A stretch of DNA of 64,000 nt, from assembly GCF_024385505.1 (NCBI RefSeq), contig NZ_JANFLT010000002.1:1-64000 (forward strand). Direction: 5' to 3'. The notes below the pieces were generated by a model. It ran no database searches. It was not told where the DNA came from and saw only the letters and a program-made list of their open reading frames with translations. This document shows, in pieces, positions 27,883 through 47,431 of the stretch. Source of the stretch: Arthrobacter zhaoxinii (GTDB lineage Bacteria > Actinomycetota > Actinomycetes > Actinomycetales > Micrococcaceae). A program made the translations under genes and the position numbers. Numbering within the stretch: position 1 is the stretch's first letter; every line of letters begins with the position of its first letter.

Positions 27883-27918
27883 TTATGCGAGACTGAACTG
27901 GTACGTACAGTATAGTTC
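27883..27918 (+). promoter_or_regulatory. Shared promoter/operator element, copy 1
   Basis: TTATGC at 27883-27888 stands 17 bp before TACAGT at 27906-27911. TACAGT lies in CGTACAGTA, the core shared by four units of the region. GAACT at 27895 and AGTTC at 27914 bracket it as an outer inverted repeat. The first monooxygenase gene starts 38 bp after TACAGT. Confidence 0.6.
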
Positions 27919-27949
27919 GGTTATCACGTCACCCACGAGAGGTATACCG

Positions 27950-29137
27950 ATGTCGATGACGACAACGACCGCCCCCACAGCAAGCGAGCTCATCGCCCGC
28001 GCGGAAAAGCTGGTCCCGCTGTTGCGGGAGCGCGCATCCCAGGCCGAGAACCTCCGACGGCAGCCTGATGAGACCATCGAGGATTACAGATCAGCCGGGT
28101 TCTTCACAGCGATGGTGCCCGCGGAACACGGAGGCTCCGCACTCGGCCTCAGCGAGTTCGCCGACCTCGTCCGCGTCCTCTCGCGGGGCGACGCCTCTGC
28201 CGGATGGATCGCCGCATTCCTCATCTCGCACTCGACCCTCCTCTACCGCTACGGCGCGGAGGCACAGGGTGAGTTCTTCGCGGAGAAACCGTACGGCCTG
28301 ACCGTCGCCGCTGCGGGCCCTCCCGGAGCCGCAACCCCTGTGGAGGGCGGATATAACGTCTCCGGCACCTGGCGCTTCGGTTCCGGTGTTCTCCACGCCG
28401 AGTGGGCCGCGCTCAGTGCGATGTCACCCGATGGTCCTCTCAGTGTTGTGGTACCCGTCAATGCGACCGAGATCGTCGACACCTGGCACGTCCCCGGGAT
28501 GAAGGCGACGGGCTCCAACGACATCAAGGTAGAGGGACTCTTCGTTCCGCGCCACCGCACGGTTTCCTTCCCCACGTACTCGTCTGAGCACAACGAGGGT
28601 GCGGCCCTGACTGACTACCCGCTCATCGGCTACCCCATGAACCGCACGCTCAACCTCATCCATTCCGCCGTGGCCATCGGCACCGCGGACGCGGCCCTCG
28701 AGTTGTTCGCGGCCGGTCTCGGTAAGCGGGTCCGGATGCAGACACAGCAGAAGCAGATCGACGAGCCGATCACCCGCCAGACCTACGGCAAGGCATGGGA
28801 TCTCGTACAGGTCGCGGGCCTCCAGCTGCACGACGCACTTGCGCACACTGACCGGGTTTACGGCAGGCACTCGACCGATCCCGCGACGCTCGCAGACCGC
28901 GCCCGCATCAATCTGGGGCTGACCGGATCCGGGCAGAAAGCCTTCCAGGCCGTCGACCTCGTGGTGCGGGCAGCCGGCGCCTCCATCTTCCGCACCGGGG
29001 ACCCCCTGGAACGGATCGTCCGCGACACGCAGGTCATGCGCAATCACGCCGCAGTCGACTTCGAGACCATGGCATCGGTCGCCGGCGGAGCGCTGCTCGG
29101 CGTTGGCATCGGCGACTACGCCGAGCCCATGTTCTAA
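27950..29137 (+). CDS. Group-D-type flavin-dependent monooxygenase (HsaA/acyl-CoA dehydrogenase fold)
   Basis: 395 residues, the size of HsaA, the FMNH2-dependent phenol hydroxylase of steroid catabolism. It has the acyl-CoA dehydrogenase-like fold: TAMVPAEHGGSALGLSEFAD, GTWRFGSGVLHAEWAALSAM, GMKATGSNDIKVEGLFVPRH and GASIFRTGDPLERIVRDTQV. Such two-component enzymes use reduced flavin from a partner reductase to hydroxylate a ring. Two flavin reductase candidates lie within the region. It is the paralogue of the gene at 37524-38711, and both are followed by an NTF2-like gene. GAGAGG precedes the ATG by seven bases. The substrate is unknown. Confidence 0.8.
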   Translation: MSMTTTTAPTASELIARAEKLVPLLRERASQAENLRRQPDETIEDYRSAGFFTAMVPAEHGGSALGLSEFADLVRVLSRGDASAGWIAAFLISHSTLLYRYGAEAQGEFFAEKPYGLTVAAAGPPGAATPVEGGYNVSGTWRFGSGVLHAEWAALSAMSPDGPLSVVVPVNATEIVDTWHVPGMKATGSNDIKVEGLFVPRHRTVSFPTYSSEHNEGAALTDYPLIGYPMNRTLNLIHSAVAIGTADAALELFAAGLGKRVRMQTQQKQIDEPITRQTYGKAWDLVQVAGLQLHDALAHTDRVYGRHSTDPATLADRARINLGLTGSGQKAFQAVDLVVRAAGASIFRTGDPLERIVRDTQVMRNHAAVDFETMASVAGGALLGVGIGDYAEPMF

Positions 29138-29178
29138 GTCGATCCGACTGCCCGCCACCAACTGAAAAGGAAGACCGC

Positions 29179-29832
29179 ATGACCGACATTGCTGCACTTG
29201 AACGCCGGATTTCCCGAACCGAGGCCTACATCGAGATCTCGAACATCATGGGAAGGATCGAGTTCCTCCACTCGGCCTACGCGAACGAGCCGATTGTGCC
29301 GTACTTCAGCACACGGCCCGACACCGTAATCGAGCTCCCCTTCGGCCGCTACACCGGCTCCGACGCCGCGCAGCGCTGCTTCGTCGGCGCGCTCGACGAG
29401 GGCCTGCCGCCCCGCGACCTCAGCGGTGAGTACGTCGAGCACCTCTTGTCCACGCCCGTCATCGAGGTTGCCGATGACCTCGAAACGGCGAAGGCCGCGT
29501 GGATCACGCCGGGTGCCGAGGCGCACCACCTCGGCTGGGTCGAGGGCAATCCCCTCCACGGGTTCTGGTACTGGGGTCGCTACCATCTGGTCTTCCGCAA
29601 GGAGGAAGGTGCTTGGAAGATCTGGAAGTACCGGAACTCCCTCACGTTCGTTGCCGACTACTACAAGAGCTTCACGGACGGCAGCCTCCCCCGTCCCCCC
29701 GCCCCGATCGGCAACGGTGGACCGGACAGCGCTCCGCGGTTCCAGGTCGAGTACACCCCGTCGTGGGATCCCAAGGAACTCGTGCATGCGCCCGAGCCCT
29801 ATGCCACTTTCGTCGACGAGGACGAGTTCTAG
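29179..29832 (+). CDS. NTF2/SnoaL-like protein
   Basis: 217 residues of the NTF2-like cone fold (SnoaL-like domain): ALERRISRTEAYIEISNIMG at the start, ELPFGRYTGSDAAQ, and the strongly conserved ITPGAEAHHLGWVEGNPLHG, where a His pair sits in the likely pocket. NTF2-like proteins serve as isomerases, cyclases, dehydratases or small subunits of oxygenases. It follows the monooxygenase gene by 41 bp, and the pair is duplicated at 36826-38711, which suggests that monooxygenase and NTF2-like protein act together. Confidence 0.78.
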   Translation: MTDIAALERRISRTEAYIEISNIMGRIEFLHSAYANEPIVPYFSTRPDTVIELPFGRYTGSDAAQRCFVGALDEGLPPRDLSGEYVEHLLSTPVIEVADDLETAKAAWITPGAEAHHLGWVEGNPLHGFWYWGRYHLVFRKEEGAWKIWKYRNSLTFVADYYKSFTDGSLPRPPAPIGNGGPDSAPRFQVEYTPSWDPKELVHAPEPYATFVDEDEF

Positions 29833-29849
29833 GCACGCAGGAACACCAA

Positions 29850-29884
29850 AAAGCGGCCGGGTGAACAATTCACCCGGCCGCTTT
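29850..29884. terminator. Bidirectional intrinsic terminator
   Basis: A perfect 16-bp stem, AAAGCGGCCGGGTGAA with its complement, around the loop CAA, lying between the convergent NTF2-like gene and the thiolase gene. Confidence 0.88.
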
Positions 29885-29896
29885 CCGTTCTGCTGA

Positions 29897-31117
29897 TCAG
29901 CTGAGGCGTTCCAGCACGATTGCCATTCCCTGCCCGCCGCCCACGCACAGCGTGGCCATGCCAAGCGTCTTGTCCTCGGTGGACAGGCCGTTGATCAGCG
30001 TGCCGATCAGTCGGGTGCCGGTCGCACCGAACGGATGCCCGATGGCGATCGCCCCGCCGTGCGTGTTGAGCTGACGGTCCACGTCGATCCCGAGCTCCCT
30101 CGCAGAAGCAACGACCTGGACGGCGAATGCCTCATTGATCTCGATCAGGTCGAGGTCAGCGATGGTCAGGCCGGCCCGGCGAAGCGCCCGCCGCGACGAC
30201 TCGACGGGTCCGAGCCCCATGATCTCCGGCGACAGACCCGAGACAGCGGTAGAGACGATGCGCGCCAGTGGCTGCAGACCGTGCGCCTTCGCATACCGTC
30301 CGGAGACAACCACTGCGGCAGATGCACCGTCATTGAGCGGGCAGGCATTGCCTGCCGTGACCGTTCCGACGGGCGAGAACACGGGCTTAAGCTCGGCCAG
30401 CACCTCCGCGGTGGTTCCCGGACGGAGCGAGTCATCCTGATCGAAGATCGACCCGTCCGGCCGCACCACGGGCACGATCTCCCGCGCCAGGTAGCCGCTG
30501 GCCTGCGCTTCCCCCGCCAGACGCTGCGAGCGCGCAGCAAAGGCGTCCTGCTCCGCGCGGCTGACTCCGGTCAGCCGCGCCACATACTCCGCCGTGTGAC
30601 CCATCTGAATATAGGCGTCGGGCATCCCGCCGTCGGCGCGTGGGTCGTGCCACGGCGCCCCCGACAGCATCGCCTGTGCCGTGCGTTCGGCAGCTGCGTC
30701 GAACGCGGCATTACCCGCCCCGGCCGGCGGTGCCGCGTGGGATGTCGACTCGGTGCCTCCGACGAGGAACGCATCCCCTTCGCCGGCCTTAATGGCGTGG
30801 AACGCCATCCGGGTGGTTTGGATCGAGGACGCGCAGAAGCGGTTCACGGTTGTGCCCGGCAGCGTGTCGTAGTTGAGCAGCGTTGCCACGACGCGGGCCA
30901 TGTTGAACCCCTGTTCACCGTCGGGTGCCGCCGTGCCGAGCATCAGGTCGTCGACGTCGTCGATTGACAACCCAGGTACACGGTCGATGACGCCGGCGAA
31001 GACCTGGCGCGCGAGTTCGTCGCCGCGCACATCGGCCAGACCACCCTTGCGGGCACGGCCGATGGCGGTACGGGCGATGGAGACGATGACGGCGTCGTCG
31101 TCGGTAAGAGTGGTCAT
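29897..31117 (-). CDS. Thiolase (acetyl-CoA C-acyltransferase)
   Basis: 406 residues with every thiolase landmark: nucleophile Cys in TVNRFCASSIQTTRMAFHAI, His in NTHGGAIAIGHPFGATGTRL, and the second Cys in LCVGGGQGMAIVLERL. It would cleave a 3-ketoacyl-CoA with CoA, acetoacetyl-CoA being the simplest candidate. It is the last gene of a run coupled by ATGA overlaps behind the MhpA-like hydroxylase and acetoacetyl-CoA synthetase genes, which fits a terminal step to acetyl-CoA. Confidence 0.9.
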   Translation of the reverse strand: MTTLTDDDAVIVSIARTAIGRARKGGLADVRGDELARQVFAGVIDRVPGLSIDDVDDLMLGTAAPDGEQGFNMARVVATLLNYDTLPGTTVNRFCASSIQTTRMAFHAIKAGEGDAFLVGGTESTSHAAPPAGAGNAAFDAAAERTAQAMLSGAPWHDPRADGGMPDAYIQMGHTAEYVARLTGVSRAEQDAFAARSQRLAGEAQASGYLAREIVPVVRPDGSIFDQDDSLRPGTTAEVLAELKPVFSPVGTVTAGNACPLNDGASAAVVVSGRYAKAHGLQPLARIVSTAVSGLSPEIMGLGPVESSRRALRRAGLTIADLDLIEINEAFAVQVVASARELGIDVDRQLNTHGGAIAIGHPFGATGTRLIGTLINGLSTEDKTLGMATLCVGGGQGMAIVLERLS

Positions 31118-32691
31118 GCGGACTCCCGTAGGTGGGTTGTTTCAAGGGCTGCCATGAGGTTTACGGCGTCGTCAACGGTCTTTGCCGAGGCGAACCCGTG
31201 GAAGTCGGGACGGTAGACGACGGCAACGGCCGTATCGAAGACCTCACCGTATCGGCCGTCGACGTCGCTGCCGCTGTGCCGGTTGCGGGCCGCGGTATCG
31301 GCGGGCATGACCTCGATGACCTTGCACGGGAATCCGGCGGGTCTGGCCGCACGGATACGCTCCGCATCGTCCTCGCTGACCACGCGCCCGTCGACGAAGG
31401 CCACGAACTCACCCCAGGTAATCCGGTCTGCGGCCGTCTCGCTGCCGTCGAGGCCGCGCAACCGTCCCTGCACGCCGATTCGGCCGGCGACCGGATCGGT
31501 CCCGGGCGCACCTCCGGGGAAGAAGCCCGGCCCGAGGATCTCCGGCGGCATGGGGGGAAGTGCGTTCCAGGGGAACGGCCCGGTACTGAGGAAGTGGGCG
31601 TCCCGCGCCTCGACCTTGGCGGGGTCGGTCTCGCAGATCATCCGGCCGAGTTCGAGTGACATCATCAGCGCATGCTGCACGTGTGCACCCCGCTCGCTCC
31701 CATAGGTGTCGAGCAGGCTGAGCGGTGCGAGCCCGCTCAGCACGTGGTCAATCTTCCACACCAAGTTCGCGACATCGCGGACCCCCGACACCATCCCCCG
31801 CCCGAAGAAGGGCGGCATTTGGTGCGCGGCGTCGCCGGCGACGAACACGCGCCCGCGGCTCCATTCGGTGACGCAGCGCGCGTTGAACCTGTACATCGCC
31901 AGACGCTCGAGGTCCGCGTTCTCGGGAGTGACCTCCCAGGGAGCGACGAGTCCCCAGGCGTTCTCCGTGCTGGTGAATGCCGCAGCGTCCTCGCCGGGCA
32001 TCAGCATGAATTCGAAGCGACGCCGGCCAGGACCGCCGGAGACGACAGACGTCGGACGCAGGGGGTCGCAGATCTGGCCGTTCTCGGGCGTCCATTCACG
32101 CTCGGCCATCCGGAGATCCATCACCAGCCAGTCCGAGCTGAAGGCCAGATCCGTCATCGCCAGCCCGGCGAGTTCCCGCACGGCCGAGTTGGCGCCGTCG
32201 CATCCCACGAGGAATTTGGCCCGGACCGTGGCCCCGCCGGCAGGTCCGTTGACGACCGCCGACACCCCCTCGGCATCCTGGTCAAACCCGGTAAGAGCGG
32301 TTCCCCAGCGAATCTCGAGCCCTTCGGCCAGCTCCTGGTGCCGCCGCAGCGCGGCTTCGAGGTCGGGCTGGGCGAACATCGTGGACTCCGGCCAGCCCTG
32401 CGGCCCGTCGAGGGGTGCCGGGAAGGTCAGCAGGAGCTTCCGATCGGCGTTGAGCCAGTCGTAGCTCAGGGCAGGCTCGCTGAACGTGGCCTGCTCCTCC
32501 GCATCCAGGCCCACTCCGCCTAGGAAGCGGTTGACGTCCGGGTCGTAGTGGACCGCCCGAGGCAGAGAATACGGCTCGCGGTGCTGCTCAACGGCCAGCA
32601 CCCGGTACCCGCGCTGTGCAAGGTAGAGCGAGGTCAGTTGCCCCACCACACCCTGTCCCACAACAAGCACATCGACATCGTTGTCGCTCAT
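31114..32691 (-). CDS. MhpA-like FAD-dependent aromatic hydroxylase
   Basis: 525 residues of the class-A flavoprotein monooxygenase family: FAD motif VVGQGVVGQLTSLYLAQRGY, the DG motif FLVGCDGANSAVRELAG, and VFVAGDAAHQMPPFFGRGM. The thioredoxin-like C-terminal domain typical of phenol hydroxylases and MhpA is present. Such enzymes use NAD(P)H and oxygen to hydroxylate phenols, often making the diol for ring cleavage. It overlaps the thiolase and AcsA genes by ATGA. The exact phenol is unknown; MhpA itself uses 3-(3-hydroxyphenyl)propionate. Confidence 0.87.
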   Translation of the reverse strand: MSDNDVDVLVVGQGVVGQLTSLYLAQRGYRVLAVEQHREPYSLPRAVHYDPDVNRFLGGVGLDAEEQATFSEPALSYDWLNADRKLLLTFPAPLDGPQGWPESTMFAQPDLEAALRRHQELAEGLEIRWGTALTGFDQDAEGVSAVVNGPAGGATVRAKFLVGCDGANSAVRELAGLAMTDLAFSSDWLVMDLRMAEREWTPENGQICDPLRPTSVVSGGPGRRRFEFMLMPGEDAAAFTSTENAWGLVAPWEVTPENADLERLAMYRFNARCVTEWSRGRVFVAGDAAHQMPPFFGRGMVSGVRDVANLVWKIDHVLSGLAPLSLLDTYGSERGAHVQHALMMSLELGRMICETDPAKVEARDAHFLSTGPFPWNALPPMPPEILGPGFFPGGAPGTDPVAGRIGVQGRLRGLDGSETAADRITWGEFVAFVDGRVVSEDDAERIRAARPAGFPCKVIEVMPADTAARNRHSGSDVDGRYGEVFDTAVAVVYRPDFHGFASAKTVDDAVNLMAALETTHLRESA

Positions 32692-34643
32692 TTTGCTTCG
32701 ATTCCGTTCTGTTCGTTGAACACTCGGGCGCGCTGGACGAACCAGTCGACCGTGCCTGGGTTCTGCAGCGATCCGCGGTTGACCGCCTTGGCCTGGTCAT
32801 ACCCCAGAAACACCTTCTTCAAGGGCACCTCGATCCGTTTACCGGAGTACGTGACGGGGATGCCCGGCGCTGCCTCGATCGCGTCGGGAACGTGCCGTGC
32901 CGTGGCCCGGGAGCGGATCGCGGTCCGGATCCGTGCCACCAGGTCGTCGCTGAGGTCGACGCCGTCGGCCAGTTCGACGAACAGCGGCATCCAGTACCGC
33001 CCGCCCGGCATTTCGATCCCCAGAACGACGCCGTTACGCACCTCGTCCAGCGTCTGCAGCGCCGCGTAGATCTCCGCGCTGCCGAGCCGCACACCGTCGC
33101 GGTTGAGCGTCGCGTCGGATCTTCCGTGCACCACCACACCCCCGCGCGGGGTGCGGCTGATCCAGTCGCCGTGCGTCCAGACGGAGGGATCGGCCTCAAA
33201 GTACGCCGCGCGGTACTTGGCGCCATCCTCATCGCCCCAGAAGCGGACCGGCATCGACGGCATCGGCCCGGTCAGCACGAGCTCGCCCACTTCGTCGTCC
33301 GCCGCCTCGCGGCCGTCCTCGGCGCGGACCTGGACGGGAGTTCCCAGCGTCGGCCCCTGCAGTTCACCGAGGTGCACGCGCTGCCAGGGGTTGCCCCCGA
33401 TGAAACCGCTACAGATATCGGTGCCGCCGGAATCGCTTGAGAGATGGACATCGGCCTTGACCGCCGCGTGGACCCAGCGCCAGGTCGAGGGGGCGAGAAC
33501 CGATCCCGTTGACATGATCGTGTCCAGGCACGCGAGGTCGTAACGATCCCCCGGGCGCAGCCCGGACTTCTCCACGAGGGCGAGATATGCGGCACCGGTC
33601 GCGAGCATCGTCGCCTGCGTCTGAGCGACGAGGGCGAACTGGCGGTCGGCATCCGGCCACATGGACGCACCGGGGAAAGTGACCACGGATGCCCCGACGC
33701 TGAGCGTGTTCGGAAGAGTGTTCCACACCATCCAGGAGGTGTTCGCGGCGGTGAAGTAGCGATCACCCGGACCAAGGTCGAACTGCAGCCCGATTCCCTT
33801 GGCGGATTCCAGCAGCATTCCGCCGTGTCCGTGCACGATCCCCTTCGGTATGCCCGTGGTTCCGGAGGAGAAGAGAACCCACAAAGGGTGGTCAAACGGG
33901 AGGCGCCGGTAGTCCGCGGGTGCAGGCGGCAAGGCATCGAGGCCGTCGAGGTACACGACGTCGGTCACCGTAGGCAGCGCGGAGCCGACCGAATCGACCA
34001 GTGGCCGGGAGTCGACCGCGCGGCCCTTGAACGTGTAGCCGGAGAAACCCAACAGCACGCGGGGCTCCAGCGGTGCGAGCCTGTCGACGATGGCGGGTTT
34101 AGCGAAGTCGGGTGAGCACACCGACCAGATGGCGCCGAGGGATGCGGTCGCGAGCATCGCAGCGATCGCCTCGGGGATATTCGGAAAGATACCCGCGACG
34201 ACATCGCCCTGCTCGACGCCGAGGCCGCGGAGGCGGGCGGAGAGGGCCGCGACACGATCACGGAGACCGGCCCAGGTCCACTCGATGCGCCCGTCCTCGG
34301 CCAGTCCGACGATCGCCACCTCGTCCGGCCTTGTGTCCGCATGCCGCAGGACATTCTCGGCATAGTTCAGCCGCGCCTCCGGGTACCAGACCGCACCGGG
34401 CATGCGGCGCTCCGAAAGGGCAGGTCCCACCAGCCCGTCGCCTATCAGGCCTGCATGCTCACGTACGAGATCCCAGAATGCCCCGGGCTCCTCGACCGAC
34501 CACCGCCAGAAGACAGGGTAGTCGTCGAGGAGCACGCCGTGGCGTTCCAGGGCCAGCTCACGGAGGGACCACAGCTGGGTCTGCCGGATACTCTCCTCGG
34601 TCGGAGCCCAGGTGACCTCGGGCGCCGCAGACGTCTCGGTCAC
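32688..34643 (-). CDS. Acetoacetyl-CoA synthetase (acetoacetate-CoA ligase)
   Basis: 651 residues, the usual length of the AacS/AcsA-type family. The AMP-binding P-loop reads VLFSSGTTGIPKGIVHGHGG, the acyl-pocket region is HLSSDSGGTDICSGFIGGNP, and the C-terminal catalytic lysine lies in TYSGKRIEVPLKKVFLG. These motifs match acetoacetyl-CoA synthetases more than acetyl-CoA synthetases. It would activate acetoacetate, or a similar 3-oxo acid, released by the FAH-family hydrolase encoded just upstream. Coupling to both neighbours is by ATGA overlap. Confidence 0.85.
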   Translation of the reverse strand: MTETSAAPEVTWAPTEESIRQTQLWSLRELALERHGVLLDDYPVFWRWSVEEPGAFWDLVREHAGLIGDGLVGPALSERRMPGAVWYPEARLNYAENVLRHADTRPDEVAIVGLAEDGRIEWTWAGLRDRVAALSARLRGLGVEQGDVVAGIFPNIPEAIAAMLATASLGAIWSVCSPDFAKPAIVDRLAPLEPRVLLGFSGYTFKGRAVDSRPLVDSVGSALPTVTDVVYLDGLDALPPAPADYRRLPFDHPLWVLFSSGTTGIPKGIVHGHGGMLLESAKGIGLQFDLGPGDRYFTAANTSWMVWNTLPNTLSVGASVVTFPGASMWPDADRQFALVAQTQATMLATGAAYLALVEKSGLRPGDRYDLACLDTIMSTGSVLAPSTWRWVHAAVKADVHLSSDSGGTDICSGFIGGNPWQRVHLGELQGPTLGTPVQVRAEDGREAADDEVGELVLTGPMPSMPVRFWGDEDGAKYRAAYFEADPSVWTHGDWISRTPRGGVVVHGRSDATLNRDGVRLGSAEIYAALQTLDEVRNGVVLGIEMPGGRYWMPLFVELADGVDLSDDLVARIRTAIRSRATARHVPDAIEAAPGIPVTYSGKRIEVPLKKVFLGYDQAKAVNRGSLQNPGTVDWFVQRARVFNEQNGIEAK

Positions 34644-35491
34644 GGTGCCGCGGTGAACTCGTTCGTAAACGAGCCGAAGCCGTCGAGGGTGCTGGTGAGG
34701 CGATAGCCCGGCCGCATCAGGATCCCCCGCGAGAGTCCCACACCCGCGGGCGTGCCCGTGAAGATGATGTCCCCGGGCAGCAGCGTCACGATCTGCGAGA
34801 GCCGGTGGATGCTCTCGTCAATCGGGAAGAAGAGCTGATCCGTGTCACCATCCTGAAGGGTAATCGTCTCTTCTCCCGGGCGCTCCAGCACCGCGTGGAA
34901 GGAGATGGAGTCCCGGTCCGGGAATTCGTCCGGGGTGACCACGAACGGTCCGAACGGTCCGAAGTTCGGGAAGGACTTGCCCATCGAGAACTGCGGTACG
35001 GGGGGACGACGCTGCACCGTGCGTTCCGAGTAATCCTGCCCGACGGCCATGCCGGCCACGTGCTGCCACGCATCGGCCTTCGGGATCCTGCGGCCTCCCT
35101 TACCGATAACCACGACAATCTCGGTTTCGTAATCGACGTCGTCGCTCGGCAGTTCGACCTGCGCGTTGGGGGCTGCGAGGCAGGATTGGAACTTCGTGAA
35201 GACGATCAGGTCTTCAGGTGCCGGGATGTTCGCCTCCGCGGCGTGGTCCTTGTAATTCACACCGATGGCGAGCACCTGCGGCGGCCTCGGGACCGGGATG
35301 CCGAGATCGGCCGGTTCGAAGGGCACAGCCGCCGGCAGGGTCGCCGCAGAAGCCCAGGCAACGAAGTCACTCCAGCGCTCGTACACATCCATCGGGTCGG
35401 GCCCGAAAGCGCCGTCGGAGGCTTTCGCGACGTCGACTGCTCCCCCCTCGGTAACGAGGGAGGCGCGGCCGTTCAGGTTGGCAATGCGCAT
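34640..35491 (-). CDS. Fumarylacetoacetate-hydrolase (FAH) family hydrolase
   Basis: 283 residues with the FAH catalytic core: IGVNYKDHAAEANIPAPEDL, VFTKFQSCLAAPN, metal ligands in DYETEIVVVIGKGGRRI and the terminal FTGTPAGVGLSRG. The family cleaves C-C bonds of beta-diketo acids or isomerises or hydrates ring-cleavage products. Its place between the VOC dioxygenase gene and the acetoacetyl-CoA synthetase gene suggests hydrolysis of the ring-cleavage product with acetoacetate or a similar acid leaving. It overlaps the synthetase gene by four bases. Confidence 0.87.
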   Translation of the reverse strand: MRIANLNGRASLVTEGGAVDVAKASDGAFGPDPMDVYERWSDFVAWASAATLPAAVPFEPADLGIPVPRPPQVLAIGVNYKDHAAEANIPAPEDLIVFTKFQSCLAAPNAQVELPSDDVDYETEIVVVIGKGGRRIPKADAWQHVAGMAVGQDYSERTVQRRPPVPQFSMGKSFPNFGPFGPFVVTPDEFPDRDSISFHAVLERPGEETITLQDGDTDQLFFPIDESIHRLSQIVTLLPGDIIFTGTPAGVGLSRGILMRPGYRLTSTLDGFGSFTNEFTAAP

Positions 35492-36184: not shown

Positions 36185-36260
36185 CATTGTTCCTTTACTC
36201 AGCGGCTGCGCTGCAGCCGATTCATTGCTGTACTTACGACTCAGTTTTGTAAGGAGGCCC

Positions 36261-36761: not shown

Positions 36762-36788
36762 CGGTACCTCCTCATTGAGATTCATAGT

Positions 36789-36820
36789 CGTACTGTACGG
36801 TGTAGTGCAGGTAAGCGCAA
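36789..36820 (-). promoter_or_regulatory. Shared promoter/operator element, copy 2
   Basis: On the minus strand TTGCGC (36820-36815) stands 17 bp before TACAGT (36797-36792), within CCGTACAGTACG, a GTAC-A-GTAC palindrome. It lies in the gap between the NTF2-like gene and the flavin reductase, with the predicted start about 24 bases before the GTG. Confidence 0.65.
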
Positions 36821-36825
36821 TGGGT

Positions 36826-40182: not shown

Positions 40183-40205
40183 TCTCTTCTTTGAGGCTTC
40201 CGTGA

Positions 40206-40817
40206 TTAGGGGCGGGGCGCCGGGGAGCCCGACGGCAGCGTCGGGGGCGGCGGGCCTTCGGCACGGAGCGGCCCCAGCGCATGCGTCCACCGCAGCAGTT
40301 CCGTCAGCATCGGTGCGACGGCACCCTGGGCGGAAGGCGGCGGCACGAAGTCGCCTTCCTCAAAGTTCTGCATAACAAGCGGCAGTACGACGCCGTCCGG
40401 CAGCGGCATCATGCGAACAGTCGTGACGATCTGTTTCATGACCTGGACTGCACGGAGACCTCCCGCGATGCCGCCGTAGCTGACGAAGGCGACGGGAGCA
40501 TACATCCACTCGCGCCCGAGGTAGTCGAAAGCATTCAGCAGGGCGGCCGACGGCCCGTAGTTGTACTCCGGTGAAACGAAGATGAACGCGTCCGCTTCCC
40601 TGATTTTCGCGGCCCACCGCTGCGTGTGCCCATGCTCGTAGCGTCCCAGGACAGGGTGGTGGCGTTCGTCGAGGACGGGCAGTTCATACTCCGCGATGTC
40701 GACGAGCTCTACCTCGAATCTTCCATCCGCCTCCGCTCGCTCGAAGGCCCACTGCGCTATGGGTCCGGCGAGGCGGCCGGGGCGAGTACTGCCGACAATG
40801 ATCTGCAGTTTCGGCAT
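40206..40817 (-). CDS. NAD(P)H-dependent FMN reductase
   Basis: 203 residues of the flavodoxin-like NADPH-dependent FMN reductase family: QIIVGSTRPGRLAGPIAQW binds the flavin phosphate, and FIFVSPEYNYGPSAALLNAF follows. Together with the HpaC-type reductase it offers a second source of reduced flavin for the four monooxygenases. It ends in a Pro-rich tail (PPPPTLPSGSPAPRP) resembling the tail of the neighbouring monooxygenase. It lies three bases after the NTF2-like gene upstream, so the two are co-transcribed. Confidence 0.83.
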   Translation of the reverse strand: MPKLQIIVGSTRPGRLAGPIAQWAFERAEADGRFEVELVDIAEYELPVLDERHHPVLGRYEHGHTQRWAAKIREADAFIFVSPEYNYGPSAALLNAFDYLGREWMYAPVAFVSYGGIAGGLRAVQVMKQIVTTVRMMPLPDGVVLPLVMQNFEEGDFVPPPSAQGAVAPMLTELLRWTHALGPLRAEGPPPPTLPSGSPAPRP

Positions 40818-40820
40818 CGG

Positions 40821-41342
40821 TCAGTCCCCCAGCGGATCCTGGCCGGGGACTGCCTTGCGGAAAGTGCTCCAATGCTCGGCAAGCTTGCCGTTGTGCACCC
40901 GAAAAACGGTGAGGATGTTCCAGTCGTAGGAGGCCTCCGGAATGACAGGATCCGGGACGACCTCGCGCATCATGAGGCACGCAACCTCGCCATCAAGAAT
41001 GACACTCACCACCGGCGGCGGAACGACCCCGGTGACCGGGACATGCCGGAAGTGCTCGATAAGGTTCCCGAGGCCGTTACCGGCCGCGTTCGGGTCGTGC
41101 TGGACATAGTCTTCGGCGGCGTATCTGGTCATCACCTCGACAACCTGTTCCTGCACCTTGTCGTCGCGGACCATACGGGCCAGGTCTGCTTCGAAGTCGA
41201 TAAGCAGGCGCTTGACCGCGGTGCGTTCCGGCGAAGAATCAGCAGCGACCGCCGCCTTGAACTCCTCATTGTCGAGCCAGTTCTGATAAATCGCGGGATC
41301 ACTGATCTCTGCGATTCCATTGATGACGGTAAATCCAGCCAT
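40821..41342 (-). CDS. SnoaL-like (NTF2-fold) protein, third type
   Basis: About 173 residues from an ATG with AGAGGA eight bases upstream. Unlike the other two NTF2-like proteins it resembles the predicted SnoaL-like aldol-condensation or cyclase group: MTRYAAEDYVQHDPNAAGNG, IEHFRHVPVTG and HNGKLAEHWSTFRKAVPGQD. In that group an Asp/His pair in VQHDP is typical. It is the first gene after a promoter and palindrome at 41394-41457 and seems to lead the run of reductase, two monooxygenases and an NTF2-like gene. Confidence 0.75.
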   Translation of the reverse strand: MAGFTVINGIAEISDPAIYQNWLDNEEFKAAVAADSSPERTAVKRLLIDFEADLARMVRDDKVQEQVVEVMTRYAAEDYVQHDPNAAGNGLGNLIEHFRHVPVTGVVPPPVVSVILDGEVACLMMREVVPDPVIPEASYDWNILTVFRVHNGKLAEHWSTFRKAVPGQDPLGD

Positions 41343-41393
41343 GGTGCGGATCCTCTCTGCAGCTGTCGGCGTCGTGTCAGGGGCAGACACCGC

Positions 41394-41457
41394 ATCGAAA
41401 CGCCATCGTTTCGATCAGCTCGAGGGTCACGCTACTGCCACGCCGCAGGGAGCGCAA
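41394..41457 (-). promoter_or_regulatory. Promoter with 22-bp palindrome for the SnoaL-led run
   Basis: On the minus strand TTGCGC (41457-41452) is 17 bp before TAGCGT (41434-41429). Just beyond the predicted start lies ATCGAAACG-CCAT-CGTTTCGAT (41394-41415), with perfect 9-bp arms. This is a good repressor-operator position; a TetR protein encoded next door is the natural candidate. Confidence 0.6.
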
Positions 41458-41621: not shown

Positions 41622-42218
41622 TCAGCGGTGCGAGAGCACCGGGATCAGAATCGTGTCGACAAAGCCGGCCAAGTACTCGCGGTCCGGAAATGTCCCCTCC
41701 GCCAGGTGTTTGGCGAGCGGCATGGATAAGAACGCATGATGGCAGTACCGCCGAACGGTCGCATCGACGGAGATTTCCCGCCGCTCGACGGCGCGGTCGA
41801 TGGCGCGGTCGAGCGGGGAACCCGCGGGAGCCGAGAGCTGCTCACGCATCGTCTCCGCAAGTGCCTCATCGCGCATCGACGCGTGGGCGAGGGCCGCGAG
41901 GAGCGTCATCTCGGATTCAGCCACATGGGCGACCTGCTCCATGACGGCGAGTAGATCGCCGCGTAACGTGCCGGTGTCTACATCGGCCGGCTCCCCTAGC
42001 TGGGAGTGTGAACGGAGGGCGGCCATCACTAGGCCCGGCTTGCCGTGCCACTGGCGATAGATCGTCGCCGTGCTGCATTTGGAGCGTTTCGCCACGGCGG
42101 GCATGGCCAGACCTTCATAACCGACCTCTTCGAGGAGGCCAAGGGTCTCGGCGAGGATCTCCGCCTCACGGTGCGGCGAGAGCCGGCTGTGCCGAGGCCG
42201 TTCAGCGGGATCGCTCAC
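41622..42218 (-). CDS. TetR/AcrR-family regulator 1 of the catabolic region
   Basis: 198 residues. The helix-turn-helix is LEEVGYEGLAMPAVAKRSKC with recognition helix STATIYRQWHGKPGL. The C-terminal half is helical with no close match I can name. It is encoded just upstream of the SnoaL-led run, whose promoter carries a 22-bp palindrome, so it may control that run. A second TetR gene lies 25 bp upstream on the same strand, so the pair is probably co-transcribed. Confidence 0.83.
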   Translation of the reverse strand: MSDPAERPRHSRLSPHREAEILAETLGLLEEVGYEGLAMPAVAKRSKCSTATIYRQWHGKPGLVMAALRSHSQLGEPADVDTGTLRGDLLAVMEQVAHVAESEMTLLAALAHASMRDEALAETMREQLSAPAGSPLDRAIDRAVERREISVDATVRRYCHHAFLSMPLAKHLAEGTFPDREYLAGFVDTILIPVLSHR

Positions 42219-42243
42219 CGTTGCACCCTTTCCACAATCATCC

Positions 42244-42942
42244 TTAGCCCAGCGCCGGGCCCCACGGATAGTCGTAGCCGGGCTTCAGCACCAGGTCCTG
42301 CTCCCCCGCAATCGGACGCAGCCCGCGCAGGAAGACACGCACAATGTAGTCAACATGGGCTTCGAGCAGCTCGTCGGAGACGTCGACGTCTGAGATCAGT
42401 GCATCGAACTCGATGCCGGACACCGTCATCCGCAGGAGCATTGAGGCGTGCGCCTCCGGCCGATCTACTTCGAAGCCGTGCTCGGAGCCATAATCAACGA
42501 GCAGCTGCGCGATGATGCTGATGATGTCCGAGACGTCAGGCATTGCAATGGTCGTGAACGCTGCCTGGATCTCTCGCCGCCGGTTGTGCTCAGCGATCAT
42601 CACGCGGAAGTACGCGATCGCCTGTGCGCCCGTGCCGGCCCTGGTAGCCGCGACCAGCGCGCCTACCAGCCGATCCTCAGCGGACCCCTCTCCGGATCCG
42701 TCGCGCTGTCGAAGCTCGCGCAACCGCTGCCCGAGCTCCATGCTTCCATGCTGCAGAACAGCTTTGAAGAGCTCAAGCTTGTCCGCGAAGTGCGCATAGA
42801 CCGTCGTCTTGGACACTCCTGCCCGAGCCGCCACCGCATCCATGGATGTGCCGTCATACCCATTGAGCAACAACAGTTCAACGGCGGCGTCGAGCACCGC
42901 GTCGCGCTTGCTGCGCCTGCCGCTTGGTTTTGCCCGTGGCAT
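42244..42942 (-). CDS. TetR/AcrR-family regulator 2 of the catabolic region
   Basis: 232 residues with an N-terminal basic stretch, then a clear helix-turn-helix: LLLNGYDGTSMDAVAARAGV followed by SKTTVYAHFADKLELFKAVL. The C-terminal domain resembles the AefR-type group. It is divergent from the monooxygenase gene at 43097, and the 154-bp gap holds a perfect 7-bp inverted repeat next to its own start and the shared promoter element near the other gene. It is the best candidate for the regulator of the four-copy element. Confidence 0.83.
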   Translation of the reverse strand: MPRAKPSGRRSKRDAVLDAAVELLLLNGYDGTSMDAVAARAGVSKTTVYAHFADKLELFKAVLQHGSMELGQRLRELRQRDGSGEGSAEDRLVGALVAATRAGTGAQAIAYFRVMIAEHNRRREIQAAFTTIAMPDVSDIISIIAQLLVDYGSEHGFEVDRPEAHASMLLRMTVSGIEFDALISDVDVSDELLEAHVDYIVRVFLRGLRPIAGEQDLVLKPGYDYPWGPALG

Positions 42943-42972
42943 TCGGCTCTCCTCTGTTTACGCTCCGACTCG

Positions 42973-42988
42973 ACTCGCACCTGCGAGT
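42973..42988. promoter_or_regulatory. Inverted repeat in front of TetR gene 2
   Basis: ACTCGCA-CC-TGCGAGT, perfect 7-bp arms with a 2-bp centre, 31 bp upstream of the regulator's start codon. It could be an autoregulatory operator. Confidence 0.45.
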
Positions 42989-43012
42989 TGCCGCTCATCG
43001 CCATCTTATGCT

Positions 43013-43025
43013 CTGGACCGACCAG
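43013..43025. promoter_or_regulatory. ACCGACCAGTA motif, first copy
   Basis: CTGGACCGACCAG at 43013-43025 is a near-palindrome, and the sequence continues TACGG. Its ACCGACCAGTA core recurs at 47408-47418, upstream of the ABC transporter operon. It looks like a TetR-type half-site, and it lies just upstream of the -35 of the shared promoter. Confidence 0.4.
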
Positions 43026-43040
43026 TACGGAAAGAGGGCA

Positions 43041-43074
43041 TGGACAAGGGGCGCACTGATCCGTACAGTACAGG
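43041..43074 (+). promoter_or_regulatory. Shared promoter/operator element, copy 3
   Basis: TGGACA at 43041-43046 (five of six to the -35 consensus) stands 17 bp before TACAGT at 43064-43069, inside CCGTACAGTACAGG. The predicted transcript starts about 20 bases before the ATG of the monooxygenase gene. Confidence 0.68.
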
Positions 43075-43096
43075 CCACCCAACGGACGGAGATAAT

Positions 43097-44416
43097 ATGA
43101 CTGACACGATTCCCCAGCACTCTGACGAACTGAGTCCCGGGCTCCCCCCTGAGCGGTCGAGCCCCCTGGATGCACCGGCGTCGAGATATCTCAGTGCGGA
43201 GGGGAAACGGCTCGCCGACGGGGTGCGCGACCTCCAGCACCGCATTCGGGAGCTCGCCCCCGAGGCCGAGCGCCGCGGCCGTCTCAGCACGGAGATTGTC
43301 GAGGCCTTTACCGAACTTGGCCTCTACCGCGCCTGTGCCCCCATCGAGTACGGCGGATCCGCTCTGGGTGCTCGCGATATCGCTGAGATTGCGCGGGCAC
43401 TCGGACGAGGCGACGCCGCGGCAAGCTGGACCTTCTTCGTGGGCACCAGCCTCCGCATGGTCAGCACCTTCCCGAAGCCCTTGGTGGACGAGCTCTACAG
43501 CCGTCAGCAGGGCCACATCGGCCCGCTCGCCGCCGGGGGGTCGACGTTTGCCGCCGTGACGGGCAAGGCGGTCAGGGTGGAAGGGGGATGGAGCATCGAG
43601 GGGAAATGGACCTACGTATCGGGGAATCACGACGCCGCCTGGCTCTTCGGCGGTGCCGCCTGGGTTGATGGAGACCGCAGCGGTCATGCACTTTTCATGA
43701 TGGACCCGGCCGACGTCCAGCCGGTTGATGACTGGCATGTGGCCGGCATGATGGCATCCGACTCCAACTCCATCATCACAACGAAGCCGATGTTCGTGCC
43801 CGACCATCGCTTCATCGATATGGCAGAGTTCCCGATGCACCTGGACAGTGCGGCGGAACGGTTCGCAGGCCTTGCCTACCGGGCGAAGACACGGGCATCC
43901 ATGATGACCGCCACGGTATTGAACATGGCCACCCTGGTCGGCATGGGCGAGGGCGCCTTGGAGGTGTTCCAGGAGCTCGCGCCGAAACGGAAGCCGTTCA
44001 GCCCGCCGTATGACACGGTTGCCGAAATGGCGTCCAGCCAGGTTGCAGCCGGTAAGGCAAAGGCGCTTCTCGGCGTTGCGGGCGCGGCCGTACTCCAGTA
44101 CGCGGACGAGATCGACCATCTCGCGGTTCGCGGTGAAGACTACACCGGCGATGAGGAGGCGCAGGGCTGCACGGATCTCGCCTTCGCCGGCCAGCTTGCG
44201 AAGGACGCAATCGACCTCCTCCTGCGCATCCTGGGTTCGTCGGGTATGGCACTGTCCAACCCGCTCCAGCGTTACTCGCGCGACGCCGGCGTCATACTCT
44301 CCCACGGCGCAATGCGGCTCGAATCGCTTGCAGAGATCAGTGGGCGTCGCCTCCTCGGACAGCCCCCGTTCAAGATGTTCGCGGGTGGGCTGCAGGACAA
44401 GGGTGCGCAGAAGTAA
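43097..44416 (+). CDS. Group-D-type flavin monooxygenase, long form (second copy)
   Basis: 439 residues from an ATG with GGAG five bases upstream; a longer frame reaches 42809 but crosses the promoter. Paralogue of the protein at 38776-40182: shared blocks include ALGARDIAEIARALGRGDAA, GKWTYVSGNHDAAWLFGGAA, DDWHVAGMMASDSNSI and SNPLQRYSRDAGVILSHGAM with a GQPPFKMFAGG end. The fold is that of acyl-CoA dehydrogenases and the expected chemistry is reduced-flavin hydroxylation. It is transcribed alone and ended by a strong terminator. Confidence 0.78.
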   Translation: MTDTIPQHSDELSPGLPPERSSPLDAPASRYLSAEGKRLADGVRDLQHRIRELAPEAERRGRLSTEIVEAFTELGLYRACAPIEYGGSALGARDIAEIARALGRGDAAASWTFFVGTSLRMVSTFPKPLVDELYSRQQGHIGPLAAGGSTFAAVTGKAVRVEGGWSIEGKWTYVSGNHDAAWLFGGAAWVDGDRSGHALFMMDPADVQPVDDWHVAGMMASDSNSIITTKPMFVPDHRFIDMAEFPMHLDSAAERFAGLAYRAKTRASMMTATVLNMATLVGMGEGALEVFQELAPKRKPFSPPYDTVAEMASSQVAAGKAKALLGVAGAAVLQYADEIDHLAVRGEDYTGDEEAQGCTDLAFAGQLAKDAIDLLLRILGSSGMALSNPLQRYSRDAGVILSHGAMRLESLAEISGRRLLGQPPFKMFAGGLQDKGAQK

Positions 44417-44433
44417 CCGGCGCGAAAGACGCT

Positions 44434-44473: not shown

Positions 44474-44545
44474 TTTTCAGAGCTAGCCGTGAAAAAGGGG
44501 GAGGTAGAGGCGCTGGTCGCCCCGCCTCCCCCCTCTGCGTGCAGC

Positions 44546-45322
44546 TCAGGAGGCCAGCATGCCCTCTTGGACGGAGGCTCCCGTAATCCAGCCGATGACG
44601 CTTTCCTTGTCGACTGACTGCGTCGCGATATCTGCCACCTTGCGCCCGCGGTTGAGGACGACGGTGCGATTGGACACGGCGAAGGCGAGGGGAAGGTTAT
44701 GCGTGACCACGACGATCGAGGTGCCTCGCGCCGCGAGGGTCTTGATGAGCTCCTCGACGAGTTCGGTCTGCTCGTGTCCGAGCGCAGCCGTCGGCTCATC
44801 CATGAGGAGGATGCCCTGCTCGGGCAGGCGCGCGCTTGCCCGAGCGATGGCGATTACCTGGCGCTGCCCACCGGACAGCATCTCGACGGGGCGAGTCACC
44901 GGCGCCGTCCGGATTCCCAGTTCGTCGAGTTCGCGCTCCGACTCGCGCCGCATCGCCTTGTGGTCGAGAAAGCCGAGCCATCCGAGAGGACCACGCTTGA
45001 GTTGCTCCCGGCCCAGGGTGAGGTTCCCGGCAATATCCATCGCCTCCACCAGTGCGAGATCCTGGTACACCATCTGGACCCCTGCCCCGGAAGCATCCCG
45101 CGGCGACTTGAAATCCACCGGGCGCCCGTGCACCAGGATCTCCCCGGAACTGGGGCTATGCGCACCCGACATGACCTTCAGAAGCGTCGACTTGCCGGCA
45201 CCGTTGTCGCCCAACAGCGCGACGACCTCGCCTGGCCGGACAGCCAGGGATACTCGCTCCAGGGCGCGCGCATATCCGTAGTGAACAGAGATGTCTTTCA
45301 GTTCCAGTGCGGCGTCGCTCAT
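44546..45322 (-). CDS. Sugar-type ABC importer ATP-binding protein, single domain
   Basis: 258 residues with one ATPase domain: Walker A LLGDNGAGKSTLLKVMSGAH, signature LSGGQRQVIAIARA and Walker B ILLMDEPTAALG. It belongs with RbsA/XylG-type import ATPases, but those usually have two fused domains of about 500 residues; this short form resembles FrcA. It should dimerise to drive the RbsC-like permease. The start overlaps the permease stop (ATGA), and AGAGGA precedes it by five bases. Confidence 0.85.
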   Translation of the reverse strand: MSDAALELKDISVHYGYARALERVSLAVRPGEVVALLGDNGAGKSTLLKVMSGAHSPSSGEILVHGRPVDFKSPRDASGAGVQMVYQDLALVEAMDIAGNLTLGREQLKRGPLGWLGFLDHKAMRRESERELDELGIRTAPVTRPVEMLSGGQRQVIAIARASARLPEQGILLMDEPTAALGHEQTELVEELIKTLAARGTSIVVVTHNLPLAFAVSNRTVVLNRGRKVADIATQSVDKESVIGWITGASVQEGMLAS

Positions 45323-46365
45323 CGTGTTCCTCTTTTCGCGCCGTCGTCGCTGCTGGCGAGAAGGAGCTTTGACGTTGTGTTTGTCGTCCACATGTTGAGG
45401 CCGAGACCGCCGACCAGCAGCACGCCCGTCACCACGGAAGACCAGTCCGCCGGCACCTTCGCCAGCAGCAGTCCGGCGGAGATTGTCGCTACCACGATCA
45501 CGCCGAGTCCGACTCGAGGGAGGCTCCCCCGCCCACCGACGAACGGCACCCCGGCAAGCGCAACAGCTGTCATTGCGGTGAAGACGGTGCCCACGCTGGC
45601 GCTCGGGACCGCGGTCGTAATGTAGGCCGCCGTCACGATTCCTCCGAGGGCTGCGCACAGACCCGAGATCGCGAAGCCGAGGATGCGGTACCAGTTAACC
45701 GCGATGCCGACGCGGCGGGCGGCCTCGGCGCTGCCGCCGACGGCCAGCAGACGCGTCCCCCCGCGGGTGAACTTGAGGAACACAGTGAGGATGATGAAGA
45801 GGACCACCGCGATGTACACCGGTGCGGGAATGCCGAAATATGTCCGCGTTCCCATGAACACCAGCTGGGTGAGCCCCGAGATGTTGTAGCTGCCGGCGAT
45901 CAGGAGCGATGCACCACTGAGCACGCTGAGCATGGCGATGGTGACGATGAGGGGATTGAACCCCCGGAGCACGACCACGGCGTTGACAAGACCCACGACG
46001 AGTCCCGTCAGCAAGCCGAACATGATCGCCGCCCCCACCGGCAGCCCCTCCTGAAGGAGGCGCCCGGTGACGACGCCGGCCAATGCGGCTGTGCCAGGCA
46101 CCGAGAGGTCCAGCACTCCCGTCATAATCCCCACAGCGACACCCGCGGCGAAGATGCTCGCGATCGCTGCCGCGTTCAATATCGAGATAGCGGTGGGGAG
46201 GGTGAGGAAGTACGGTGCCCCCCAGAACGCGAAGACGATGATGATCGCGATGAAGAGTGCCAGGAGGCCTTGGTCACGGATCAGGAGCAGACCACGGATC
46301 TTCCACGGCAGGGCGTTGTTCGGCGAAAGCTGACTCACCGTGTCGGCCCGGGTAACCAGCGCCAT
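45319..46365 (-). CDS. RbsC-like ABC importer permease
   Basis: 348 residues with eight to ten membrane helices and the features of the branched-chain/ribose permease family: LPTAISILNAAAIASIFAAG, GVLDLSVPGTAALAGVVTGR and GGSAEAARRVGIAVNWYRIL. It would form the channel for the ligand caught by the binding lipoprotein encoded two bases upstream. Family members carry sugars, nucleosides, autoinducer-2 or other small polar molecules. Confidence 0.87.
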   Translation of the reverse strand: MALVTRADTVSQLSPNNALPWKIRGLLLIRDQGLLALFIAIIIVFAFWGAPYFLTLPTAISILNAAAIASIFAAGVAVGIMTGVLDLSVPGTAALAGVVTGRLLQEGLPVGAAIMFGLLTGLVVGLVNAVVVLRGFNPLIVTIAMLSVLSGASLLIAGSYNISGLTQLVFMGTRTYFGIPAPVYIAVVLFIILTVFLKFTRGGTRLLAVGGSAEAARRVGIAVNWYRILGFAISGLCAALGGIVTAAYITTAVPSASVGTVFTAMTAVALAGVPFVGGRGSLPRVGLGVIVVATISAGLLLAKVPADWSSVVTGVLLVGGLGLNMWTTNTTSKLLLASSDDGAKRGTR

Positions 46366-46367
46366 AT

Positions 46368-47339
46368 TCAGTTACCGCCCGTAGCCTTAACCGGAGTCTC
46401 GATGATCCCGCCCTTGGAGGTGGGGTCAGACATCAGGCGAATGAGGTCTGCTCCGGCCTCGTCAACGGCGGTGGAGTAGTCCCAGCTGACGACCGCCGTG
46501 ATGTCTCCGGCCTCCTGCGCGGCCACGGCCGCGTCACCGCCGCCTCCGGCCACGATGCAGGCCGGAGTCTTGTTGGCAGCCTTGAAGGCACCCGCCGCAC
46601 CGAGCGCGGTCTCGTCGCTCGCCGCAATGATGACGTTCGCATCGGGGTTGGCGATGAGGAGCTGCGAGACGGTGGTCTGTGCACTCGAAATGTCCGCAGC
46701 CTCGCCGGTCGCGACGATGGGGACGTCCGGGGCTCCGGCTGCAAAGGAATCTTCGATGGCACCGATGACCTGCTCTGTGCCGCCGGCGGCATCAGGCGGC
46801 ATCAGGAACAGCGCCTCGCGCCCTTCGCCGTCAACGGCGCACGTCGCTGCGGTGTCGCCGATCATCGTCCCGTACTTCATGAAGTCCGGCTCGTCGAACG
46901 CGATTCCCGGCTGAGGTCCCTCTAATCCGACCGACATGGGCGGACCCTCCACAACCACGGGAATCTTCGCCGCCTGCAGCGCCGCGATGCTCTGAGCAGC
47001 GGTCTCAGGCGCCACGGGCATGATCCACGCCCCCACGATGCTGCGCGTGTCGATGGCCTGCTGGATCTGCTGGGCCTGCTTCACCGCGTCGAAGCCAGCG
47101 TCCTGGATGGTGACGGTGTACCCCTCACCCTCGAAGTACTCGACCACGCCGTCGGCTAGCGCCGCGACGACGTCGATCTGGGAGGACGGAGTGAAGAAGG
47201 CGATCTCTCCCTTCGACTCCGCGCCGGCGGAACCGGCGGGCTTGGCAGCCGCTTCCTCGGAGGCGGCACATCCGGGTAGGGTCAACAGGCTGACCGCGAG
47301 CGCGGTGCCTGCGATTGCGAGGGAGCGAGTATTCTTCAT
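46368..47339 (-). CDS. RbsB-type ABC importer substrate-binding lipoprotein
   Basis: About 323 residues from an ATG with AAGGAG five bases upstream. The signal peptide ends with LPGCAAS, giving a lipid-anchored Cys. The mature protein is a type-I periplasmic binding fold: GEIAFFTPSSQIDVVAALAD, then GAWIMPVAPETAAQSIAALQ and ANVIIAASDETALGAAGAFK, which is the hinge and pocket layout of RbsB. It heads the importer operon behind the shared promoter element, so uptake appears co-regulated with the catabolic genes. Confidence 0.87.
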   Translation of the reverse strand: MKNTRSLAIAGTALAVSLLTLPGCAASEEAAAKPAGSAGAESKGEIAFFTPSSQIDVVAALADGVVEYFEGEGYTVTIQDAGFDAVKQAQQIQQAIDTRSIVGAWIMPVAPETAAQSIAALQAAKIPVVVEGPPMSVGLEGPQPGIAFDEPDFMKYGTMIGDTAATCAVDGEGREALFLMPPDAAGGTEQVIGAIEDSFAAGAPDVPIVATGEAADISSAQTTVSQLLIANPDANVIIAASDETALGAAGAFKAANKTPACIVAGGGGDAAVAAQEAGDITAVVSWDYSTAVDEAGADLIRLMSDPTSKGGIIETPVKATGGN

Positions 47340-47398
47340 TGAATCTCCTTGTGCACGGGGCAGCATTGCCTGCGAAAGACACCAGACATTATCGGTTT

Positions 47399-47431
47399 CT
47401 GCACTGTACCGACCAGTAGCCTAATGCGCAA
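47399..47431 (-). promoter_or_regulatory. Shared promoter/operator element, copy 4
   Basis: On the minus strand TTGCGC (47431-47426) stands 17 bp before TACAGT (47408-47403), within GGTACAGTGCAG. The -35 hexamer is identical to copy 2. The ACCGACCAGTA motif at 47408-47418 overlaps the spacer. The binding-protein gene starts 64 bp downstream. Confidence 0.65.

Follow-up and report, generated by a model that had tools for sequence, protein, structure and literature searches.

A putative catabolic island of Arthrobacter zhaoxinii, apparently exchanged between species, that joins group D oxygenases and NTF2-like proteins to a predicted orcinol-type ring-cleaving module

The DNA analysed here (the window) comprises 64,000 nucleotides, positions 1 to 64,000 of contig NZ_JANFLT010000002.1 of Arthrobacter zhaoxinii (assembly GCF_024385505.1), and its catabolic region at 27.9–47.4 kb is best read, with a probability of about 0.6, as an accessory, laterally exchanged island for the breakdown of one phenolic natural compound, with an orcinol-type cleavage at the end of the pathway. 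The initial annotation of this region had proposed a dedicated system for the uptake and breakdown of an aromatic or polycyclic natural product; a phenolic compound remains the best reading, and the evidence leans neither way on the polycyclic part. Profile searches of the window proteins against Pfam and NCBIfam recovered all the kinds of genes listed there: four oxygenases of the acyl-CoA-dehydrogenase fold, two of 395 residues and two longer, three NTF2/SnoaL-like proteins, two flavin reductases, an MhpA-like hydroxylase, VOC and FAH proteins, a thiolase, two TetR regulators, the components of an importer, and a ligase whose label had to be changed, as described below. Scans of the window for Rfam families and tRNA genes returned nothing. 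Two little-studied facts, namely that an acetoacetate-CoA ligase can follow extradiol cleavage and that group D monooxygenases come paired with NTF2-like proteins, are brought together by the island in a conserved and apparently switch-controlled pathway, and the identity of its substrate would give functions to several enzyme families together.

The distribution of the island is patchy. In a search of 395 genomes of the family, close relatives of two of its NTF2-like genes, SNO_A and SNO_B, were found in 8 of the 29 genomes of the genus (the carriers, including the window's own) and in G056, a draft genome of another genus that is 82% complete; nine further family genomes gave only weak SNO matches, and among 394 genomes sampled from the class no SNO match at E ≤ 1e-20 was obtained beyond the window's own genome. 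Sequence relatives occur in the named genomes Arthrobacter sp. zg-Y238, Arthrobacter sp. zg-Y769 and A. yangruifuii 785. The comparison of gene order across genomes, which had been suggested as a check, places the gene set in the same order in the seven further carriers of the genus, with two exceptions: no match for the FMN reductase was found in G003, and the permease of G008 is matched in two pieces. On the contigs of G056 covered here, genes for the VOC protein, the flavin reductase and the ABC importer were not found, and the ACAD_B match there is in two pieces. The island is absent from G689, a genome scored as the same species as the window's, in which the left flank runs directly into the right flank with one copy of a repeat of 91/88 bp; in the window this repeat is present twice in direct orientation (27718..27808 and 47653..47740, differing by three substitutions and one 3-bp gap), the left copy reproducing the 3′ end of a MauE-like gene (47651–48109) and the right copy lying within the full-length gene. 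The repeat is single in the eight empty loci examined (8 of the 21 non-carriers), double in two of the eight carriers (the window and G018) and single in five, and it was not found in 38 kb of G023, whose island sits elsewhere. The left ends of the island thus differ between carriers, since the copy number of the repeat varies and the MauE-like piece to the left of the island is weaker in G003. An integrase-borne element was rejected, as no integrase was seen among the island genes scanned, and the direct repeat therefore marks a boundary, not a mechanism.

In all six carriers with flanks for comparison (no flank genes of G023 were included), the median silent divergence of the island is one third to two thirds of that of the 6–8 flanking genes, with values of 0.09 versus 0.28 in G008, 0.29 versus 0.43 in G018 and 0.27 versus 0.70 in G019, the ranges of island and flanks overlapping in some carriers. 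Because of the patchy presence, the empty site within the same species and a silent divergence below that of the flanks, the block seems to pass from species to species as a laterally exchanged accessory island, in which no integrase was seen. Purifying selection acts on the island genes, as the median ratio of nonsynonymous to silent divergence (dN/dS) is 0.09–0.12 in all seven carriers compared, with a top single value of 0.65 (SNO_B in G008); of the 19 island genes entered for each carrier, ACAD_C and the ABC importer ATPase were dropped everywhere (the shortened coordinates broke the frame), together with the G008 permease (coverage filter) and the FMN reductase of G003 (without a match). 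Since the island is present or absent within one species, natural comparison strains are at hand. As observations in their own right, G023 has a mosaic island, in which SNO_B and ACAD_B are near those of the window (dS 0.12–0.23) and the TetR, importer and ACAD_D genes are far more diverged (dS ~0.9–1.4); the island locus of G689 holds a different stretch of ~12 kb (about 2735–14917) with an open reading frame (ORF) of 1065 aa, from which the locus is perhaps an insertion hot spot; and short repeat or palindromic elements are located near both island ends (window 26655–26708, 26785–26853 and 47585–47638), with similar stretches in relatives. A defence-gene scan of two flank ORFs found none.

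The ring-cleaving module is encoded by a single tight run of five genes on the minus strand, separated by three 4-bp overlaps and one 3-bp gap: a VOC protein and probable extradiol dioxygenase (35495..36346, true start probably near 36250; Pfam Glyoxalase), an FAH-family hydrolase, probably of the acylpyruvase type (34640..35491; Pfam FAA_hydrolase; solved relatives 6v77 and 8gsr), an acetoacetate-CoA ligase (AACS, 32688..34643), an MhpA-like FAD-dependent aromatic hydroxylase (31114..32691; NF004829, 474.1 bits, cut-off 390) and a thiolase (29897..31117; NF005890, 592.3 bits, cut-off 580). The ligase had been called AcsA, a wrong label, because the protein exceeds both acetoacetate-CoA ligase cut-offs (TIGR01217, 690.6 bits against 520.9, and NF002937) and falls below that of AcsA (TIGR02188, 232 bits against 725). 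Extradiol enzymes need 2-His-1-Glu metal ligands, and the putative ligands of the VOC protein, His44, His108 and Glu156, are invariant in all six sequences of an alignment made of the window sequence and five selected relatives. The solved FAH relative 8gsr is L-2,4-diketo-3-deoxyrhamnonate hydrolase, an enzyme acting on 2,4-dioxo acids. Given the FAH hydrolase, the acetoacetate-CoA ligase and the thiolase together, the simplest chemistry would be one in which the MhpA-like enzyme carries out the last hydroxylation to a trihydroxy aromatic, the VOC enzyme cleaves this in extradiol fashion to a 2,4,6-trioxo-type acid, the FAH enzyme hydrolyses the latter to pyruvate and a beta-keto acid, the ligase converts the beta-keto acid into its CoA ester, and thiolysis yields acetyl-CoA and an acyl-CoA. 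This predicted sequence, from a triol through extradiol cleavage to CoA activation and thiolysis, fits an orcinol-type ending, and the legend of a degradation figure in PMC8571283 names both trihydroxytoluene and 2,4,6-trioxoheptanoate. Other ring-cleaving enzymes are encoded in the genus: intradiol dioxygenase genes (PF00775), which could handle a second ring, are found in 27 of the 29 genomes, including the window's own, and LigB-type extradiol dioxygenases (PF02900) in 12 of the 29 (six of the eight carriers and six of the 21 non-carriers). Separately, contig 5 of the window's own genome (550000–568000) harbors another FAH gene that shares 57% identity with that of the island; genes for a GntR protein, an FAD aromatic hydroxylase and two MFS proteins are nearby, and the locus probably belongs to another aromatic pathway.

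The upstream half of the pathway would rely on group D (HsaA-like) oxygenases and NTF2-like proteins, two of each being arranged in pairs: ACAD_A (27950..29137; 395 aa; Pfam Acyl-CoA_dh_2) with SNO_A (29179..29832) on the plus strand, and ACAD_B (37524..38711; 395 aa; Acyl-CoA_dh_2/HsaA-like) with SNO_B (36826..37482) on the minus strand, both SNO proteins belonging to the NTF2/SnoaL_4 group. Because the order and the 41-bp gap are identical, in agreement with identities of 60% between the oxygenases and 57% between the NTF2 proteins, the two pairs probably arose by duplication of one oxygenase–NTF2 unit. The ACAD_B/SNO_B pair and SNO_A are also present in G056, each nearer to its own paralogue, so that the duplication is older than the split of G056. 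SNO_A is 99–100% identical in all seven further genus carriers, with a dN/dS of 0–0.025 in five comparisons (five of these seven). The two longer oxygenases are ACAD_C (38776..40290, minus strand, up to 504 aa, true start uncertain) and ACAD_D (42809..44416, plus strand, up to 535 aa), whose part common to relatives starts at ~43070, and the third NTF2-like protein, SNO_C of SnoaL_2 type (40821..41390, minus strand), scores slightly below the Pfam cut-off (PF12680, 25.9 bits against 27) and had no convincing match in a search of solved structures. The two flavin reductases, both on the minus strand, are members of different families, one of the HsaB/HpaC type (36261..36929; PF01613; HsaB model NF045630, 105.6 bits against a cut-off of 230) and the other an NADPH-dependent, flavodoxin-like FMN reductase (40206..40817; PF03358, 129.1 bits). 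A true HsaA identity was rejected for ACAD_A, ACAD_B and ACAD_C, whose scores with the HsaA model NF045629 (217.6, 227.1 and 143.5 bits) amount to one third to one half of the cut-off of 450 bits. In the proposed pathway, the substrate would be imported first by the CUT2-type ABC system and then hydroxylated several times by the group D oxygenases, fed by the two flavin reductases, while the NTF2-like partners would rearrange or cleave the hydroxylated intermediates in cofactor-free reactions, before the substrate reaches the MhpA-like enzyme. A separate occurrence of SNO-like genes was noted on a plasmid of Streptomyces sp. NBC_01450, where four NTF2 genes stand in tandem (9882–12703), with no oxygenase match found within the 30 kb read.

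The importer genes, all on the minus strand, encode an ATPase (44546..45658, start uncertain, the ORF overlapping the permease gene), a permease (45319..46365; PF02653) and a substrate-binding protein of sugar/ribose type (46368..47366; PF13407), the features of a CUT2 importer. The earlier assignment to an RbsABC-type system thus holds for the presence of the three genes and fails for the ATPase, since RbsA carries a double ATPase domain and the 370-aa ORF of the window matches a single ABC_tran stretch. Given the ribose-type binding protein, the substrate may be a glycoside or have a polyol-like feature. An MFS carrier gene is located between ACAD_B and ACAD_C in 4 of the 29 genus genomes, all of them carriers (G026, G011, G008 and G023), which have ABC genes besides, the ABC permease of G008 matching in two pieces; at E ≤ 1e-60, it is missing from the window and three other carriers, and in G056 an MFS gene with 53% identity lies downstream of ACAD_C.

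Regulation would depend on two TetR proteins (41622..42218 and 42244..42942, both on the minus strand) and on a palindrome, ATCGAAACG-N4-CGTTTCGAT, at 41394..41415, immediately before the main operon, which comprises the genes from SNO_C to the thiolase. The palindrome occurs once in the window and in none of 100 shuffles when three mismatches are allowed; with one mismatch allowed, it is found at one place per genome in all eight carriers and in none of the 21 non-carriers of the genus. Its arms are exact in seven of the eight carriers, with a variable spacer, and a diverged copy in G056, with three mismatches to the pattern, still has matched arms save at one position. Given the matched arms, the variable spacer and the restriction to carriers, the palindrome looks like an operator, at which one or the other TetR protein may bind to mediate induction; combined with its TetR protein, the palindrome could be used as a sensor. 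A second palindrome, at window 42973, was set aside as a regulatory site because with two mismatches allowed it is present in only three of the eight carriers (exact in the window and G008, two mismatches in G018).

Several observations weigh against an orcinol-type pathway for a phenolic compound. FAH homologues at E ≤ 1e-60 are present in 78 of 396 phylum genomes, and among 30 FAH loci, 24 of them covered with only ~1.5 kb per side, an AACS match was found at one and an MhpA match at seven, so the FAH–AACS adjacency is uncommon. In the plasmid collection, the VOC protein has its top matches in Priestia and Agrobacterium, at loci that are not part of such cassettes, and it gave no tblastn match with its counterparts in the Streptomyces, rhizobial and G231 clusters discussed below. 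The binding protein resembles ribose-binding proteins, which is odd for an aromatic. In G056, the upstream neighbor of SNO_A is a TetR 2-like piece instead of ACAD_A, which weakens an obligate pairing of oxygenase and NTF2 protein. The Asp of LdpA, the NTF2-family lyase to which SNO_A and SNO_B are remotely related, aligns to Ser32 of SNO_B, with the His retained as His87, and keyword searches of the open-access literature found no characterised counterpart of the upstream half.

An unlikely alternative is that the island breaks down the A ring of flavonoids or isoflavonoids in the manner of fde/ifc: a flavin hydroxylase and a VOC protein would open the ring, the FAH enzyme would cut the product and the group D enzymes would treat the remainder. 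IfcA/FdeE and IfcB/FdeC are given in PMC11069340 as the FAD monooxygenases and glyoxalase-type proteins of A-ring breakdown, a likeness at the level of description. In an uncharacterised plasmid cluster of Rhizobium leguminosarum bv. trifolii WSM1325 and Agrobacterium vitis T60/94, genes for a flavin reductase, an ACAD_C-like enzyme (46–47% identical to ACAD_C), an NTF2 protein related to SNO_C, a VOC protein, an MhpA-like hydroxylase and an FAH protein are combined as in the island, with MFS genes in addition, and a Variovorax plasmid that came from a legume root brings together FAD monooxygenase, VOC (37%), FAH (34%), NTF2 and FMN-reductase-like (44%) genes. However, the rhizobial VOC is not detectably related to that of the island, an acetoacetate-decarboxylase-like gene and a glutathione S-transferase gene stand there in place of AACS and thiolase, FdeD is a Rieske protein, none of which appeared among the island genes scanned, and PMC11069340 reports IfcA homologues from Proteobacteria only. 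Somewhat less likely still is the tentative proposal that the members of each oxygenase/NTF2 pair cooperate in ring opening: after the group D enzyme has hydroxylated a ring, its NTF2 partner, which would correspond in catabolism to the SnoaL polyketide cyclases, would open the product by a cofactor-free retro-aldol or retro-Claisen reaction, so that a polycyclic aromatic polyketide would be dismantled ring by ring to an orcinol-like core and finished by the VOC, FAH, AACS and thiolase enzymes.

It is improbable that the island serves the catabolism of lignin dimers (diarylpropanes or phenylcoumarans), with the NTF2 proteins acting as formaldehyde lyases of the LdpA/PcfL type. The homology is detectable, as SNO_B matches LdpA (8abv) at 1.7e-11 and SNO_A at 2.3e-4 (8abt at 1.3e-5). 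LdpA-type lyases release formaldehyde, and G056 has, beside its ACAD_C and MFS genes, a gene resembling glutathione-independent formaldehyde dehydrogenase (84–893; 502.8 bits, cut-off 637), the ORF covering the C-terminal two thirds of the model. Nevertheless, of the Asp–His pair only His87 is kept, and the Ser32 equivalent is invariant across SNO_A and SNO_B alike; the view that the replaced Asp is catalytic in LdpA derives from what PMC11476836 says about NTF2 proteins. A plain LdpA-type lyase was therefore rejected for both proteins, whose chemistry is expected to be related to that of LdpA and not identical. In addition, neither a lignostilbene dioxygenase nor an O-demethylase was among the island genes scanned, a further difference from the LdpA and PcfL systems as far as they are described in the excerpts of PMC12997858 and PMC11323797 consulted. 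The predicted structure of SNO_B, with a mean predicted local distance difference test score of 49, was too poor for use.

A biosynthetic or antibiotic-modifying cluster is more doubtful again; group D oxygenases and SnoaL proteins also take part in the tailoring of aromatic polyketides, and the best solved match of ACAD_D is XiaF, but no polyketide synthase, nonribosomal peptide synthetase or other scaffold enzyme was among the island genes scanned, the AACS, thiolase, FAH and extradiol-type enzymes indicate catabolism, and an importer is present. A steroid-like substrate, with HsaA/HsaB-type hydroxylation ahead of ring cleavage, is very improbable, since other steroid genes were not seen in the same scan and the three HsaA scores stay far below the cut-off, even if the best solved match of ACAD_B is the 3-HSA hydroxylase (2rfq, 1.3e-53).

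Among known systems, the orcinol pathway, which Chapman and Ribbons are said to have described in 1976, reportedly runs from a triol to 2,4,6-trioxoheptanoate and thus shares the chemistry predicted here; it ends in acetate and acetopyruvate, not in acetoacetate, and the comparison here is one of chemistry. Uncharacterised cassettes resembling the module are found on actinobacterial plasmids: that of Streptomyces sp. NBC_00015 (FAH-VOC-MhpA-AACS) shows identities to the island of 48% for FAH, 42% for AACS and 43% for MhpA, with no match between the VOC proteins and an ACAD-type gene ~16 kb away, and that of Rhodococcus koreensis R85 (AACS-FAH-VOC-FMO) of 43% for FAH, 44% for AACS and 35% for VOC, the FMO reaching only 26% over part of its length. 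Unlike the island, both are without oxygenase/NTF2 pairs. Two actinomycete genomes add partial parallels, G231 with a row formed by reductase, oxygenase, FAH, VOC and AACS genes and a SnoaL_4 gene on the opposite strand, and G080 with FAH (52%), VOC (58%) and MhpA-like genes close to one another. The nearest described system is the phenol-induced ipp cluster of Rhodococcus sp. D-6 for 2-isopropylphenol, which, in the portion of PMC12442392 seen, has an HsaA-like group D oxygenase, a reductase, an extradiol dioxygenase of 211 aa, an FAH-domain protein and an acetoacetyl-CoA synthetase; compared by gene kind and description, the island likewise has group D oxygenase and flavin reductase genes, a VOC protein with a putative 2-His-1-Glu site and an FAH gene beside AACS. 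The two differ in that ipp has one oxygenase against four in the island, in that its eight genes, one of 421 aa being without assignment, include no NTF2, MhpA-like, thiolase or importer gene named in that portion, and in that its RibBA-like and nitroreductase-like genes were not among the island genes scanned. The claim that no characterised pathway has this combination therefore stands for the whole set, for which keyword searches of the open-access literature found no described match, and has to be narrowed for the ring-cleaving half, which is of a kind already known from ipp; what is new here is the upstream half, with its four group D oxygenases, three NTF2-like proteins and importer.

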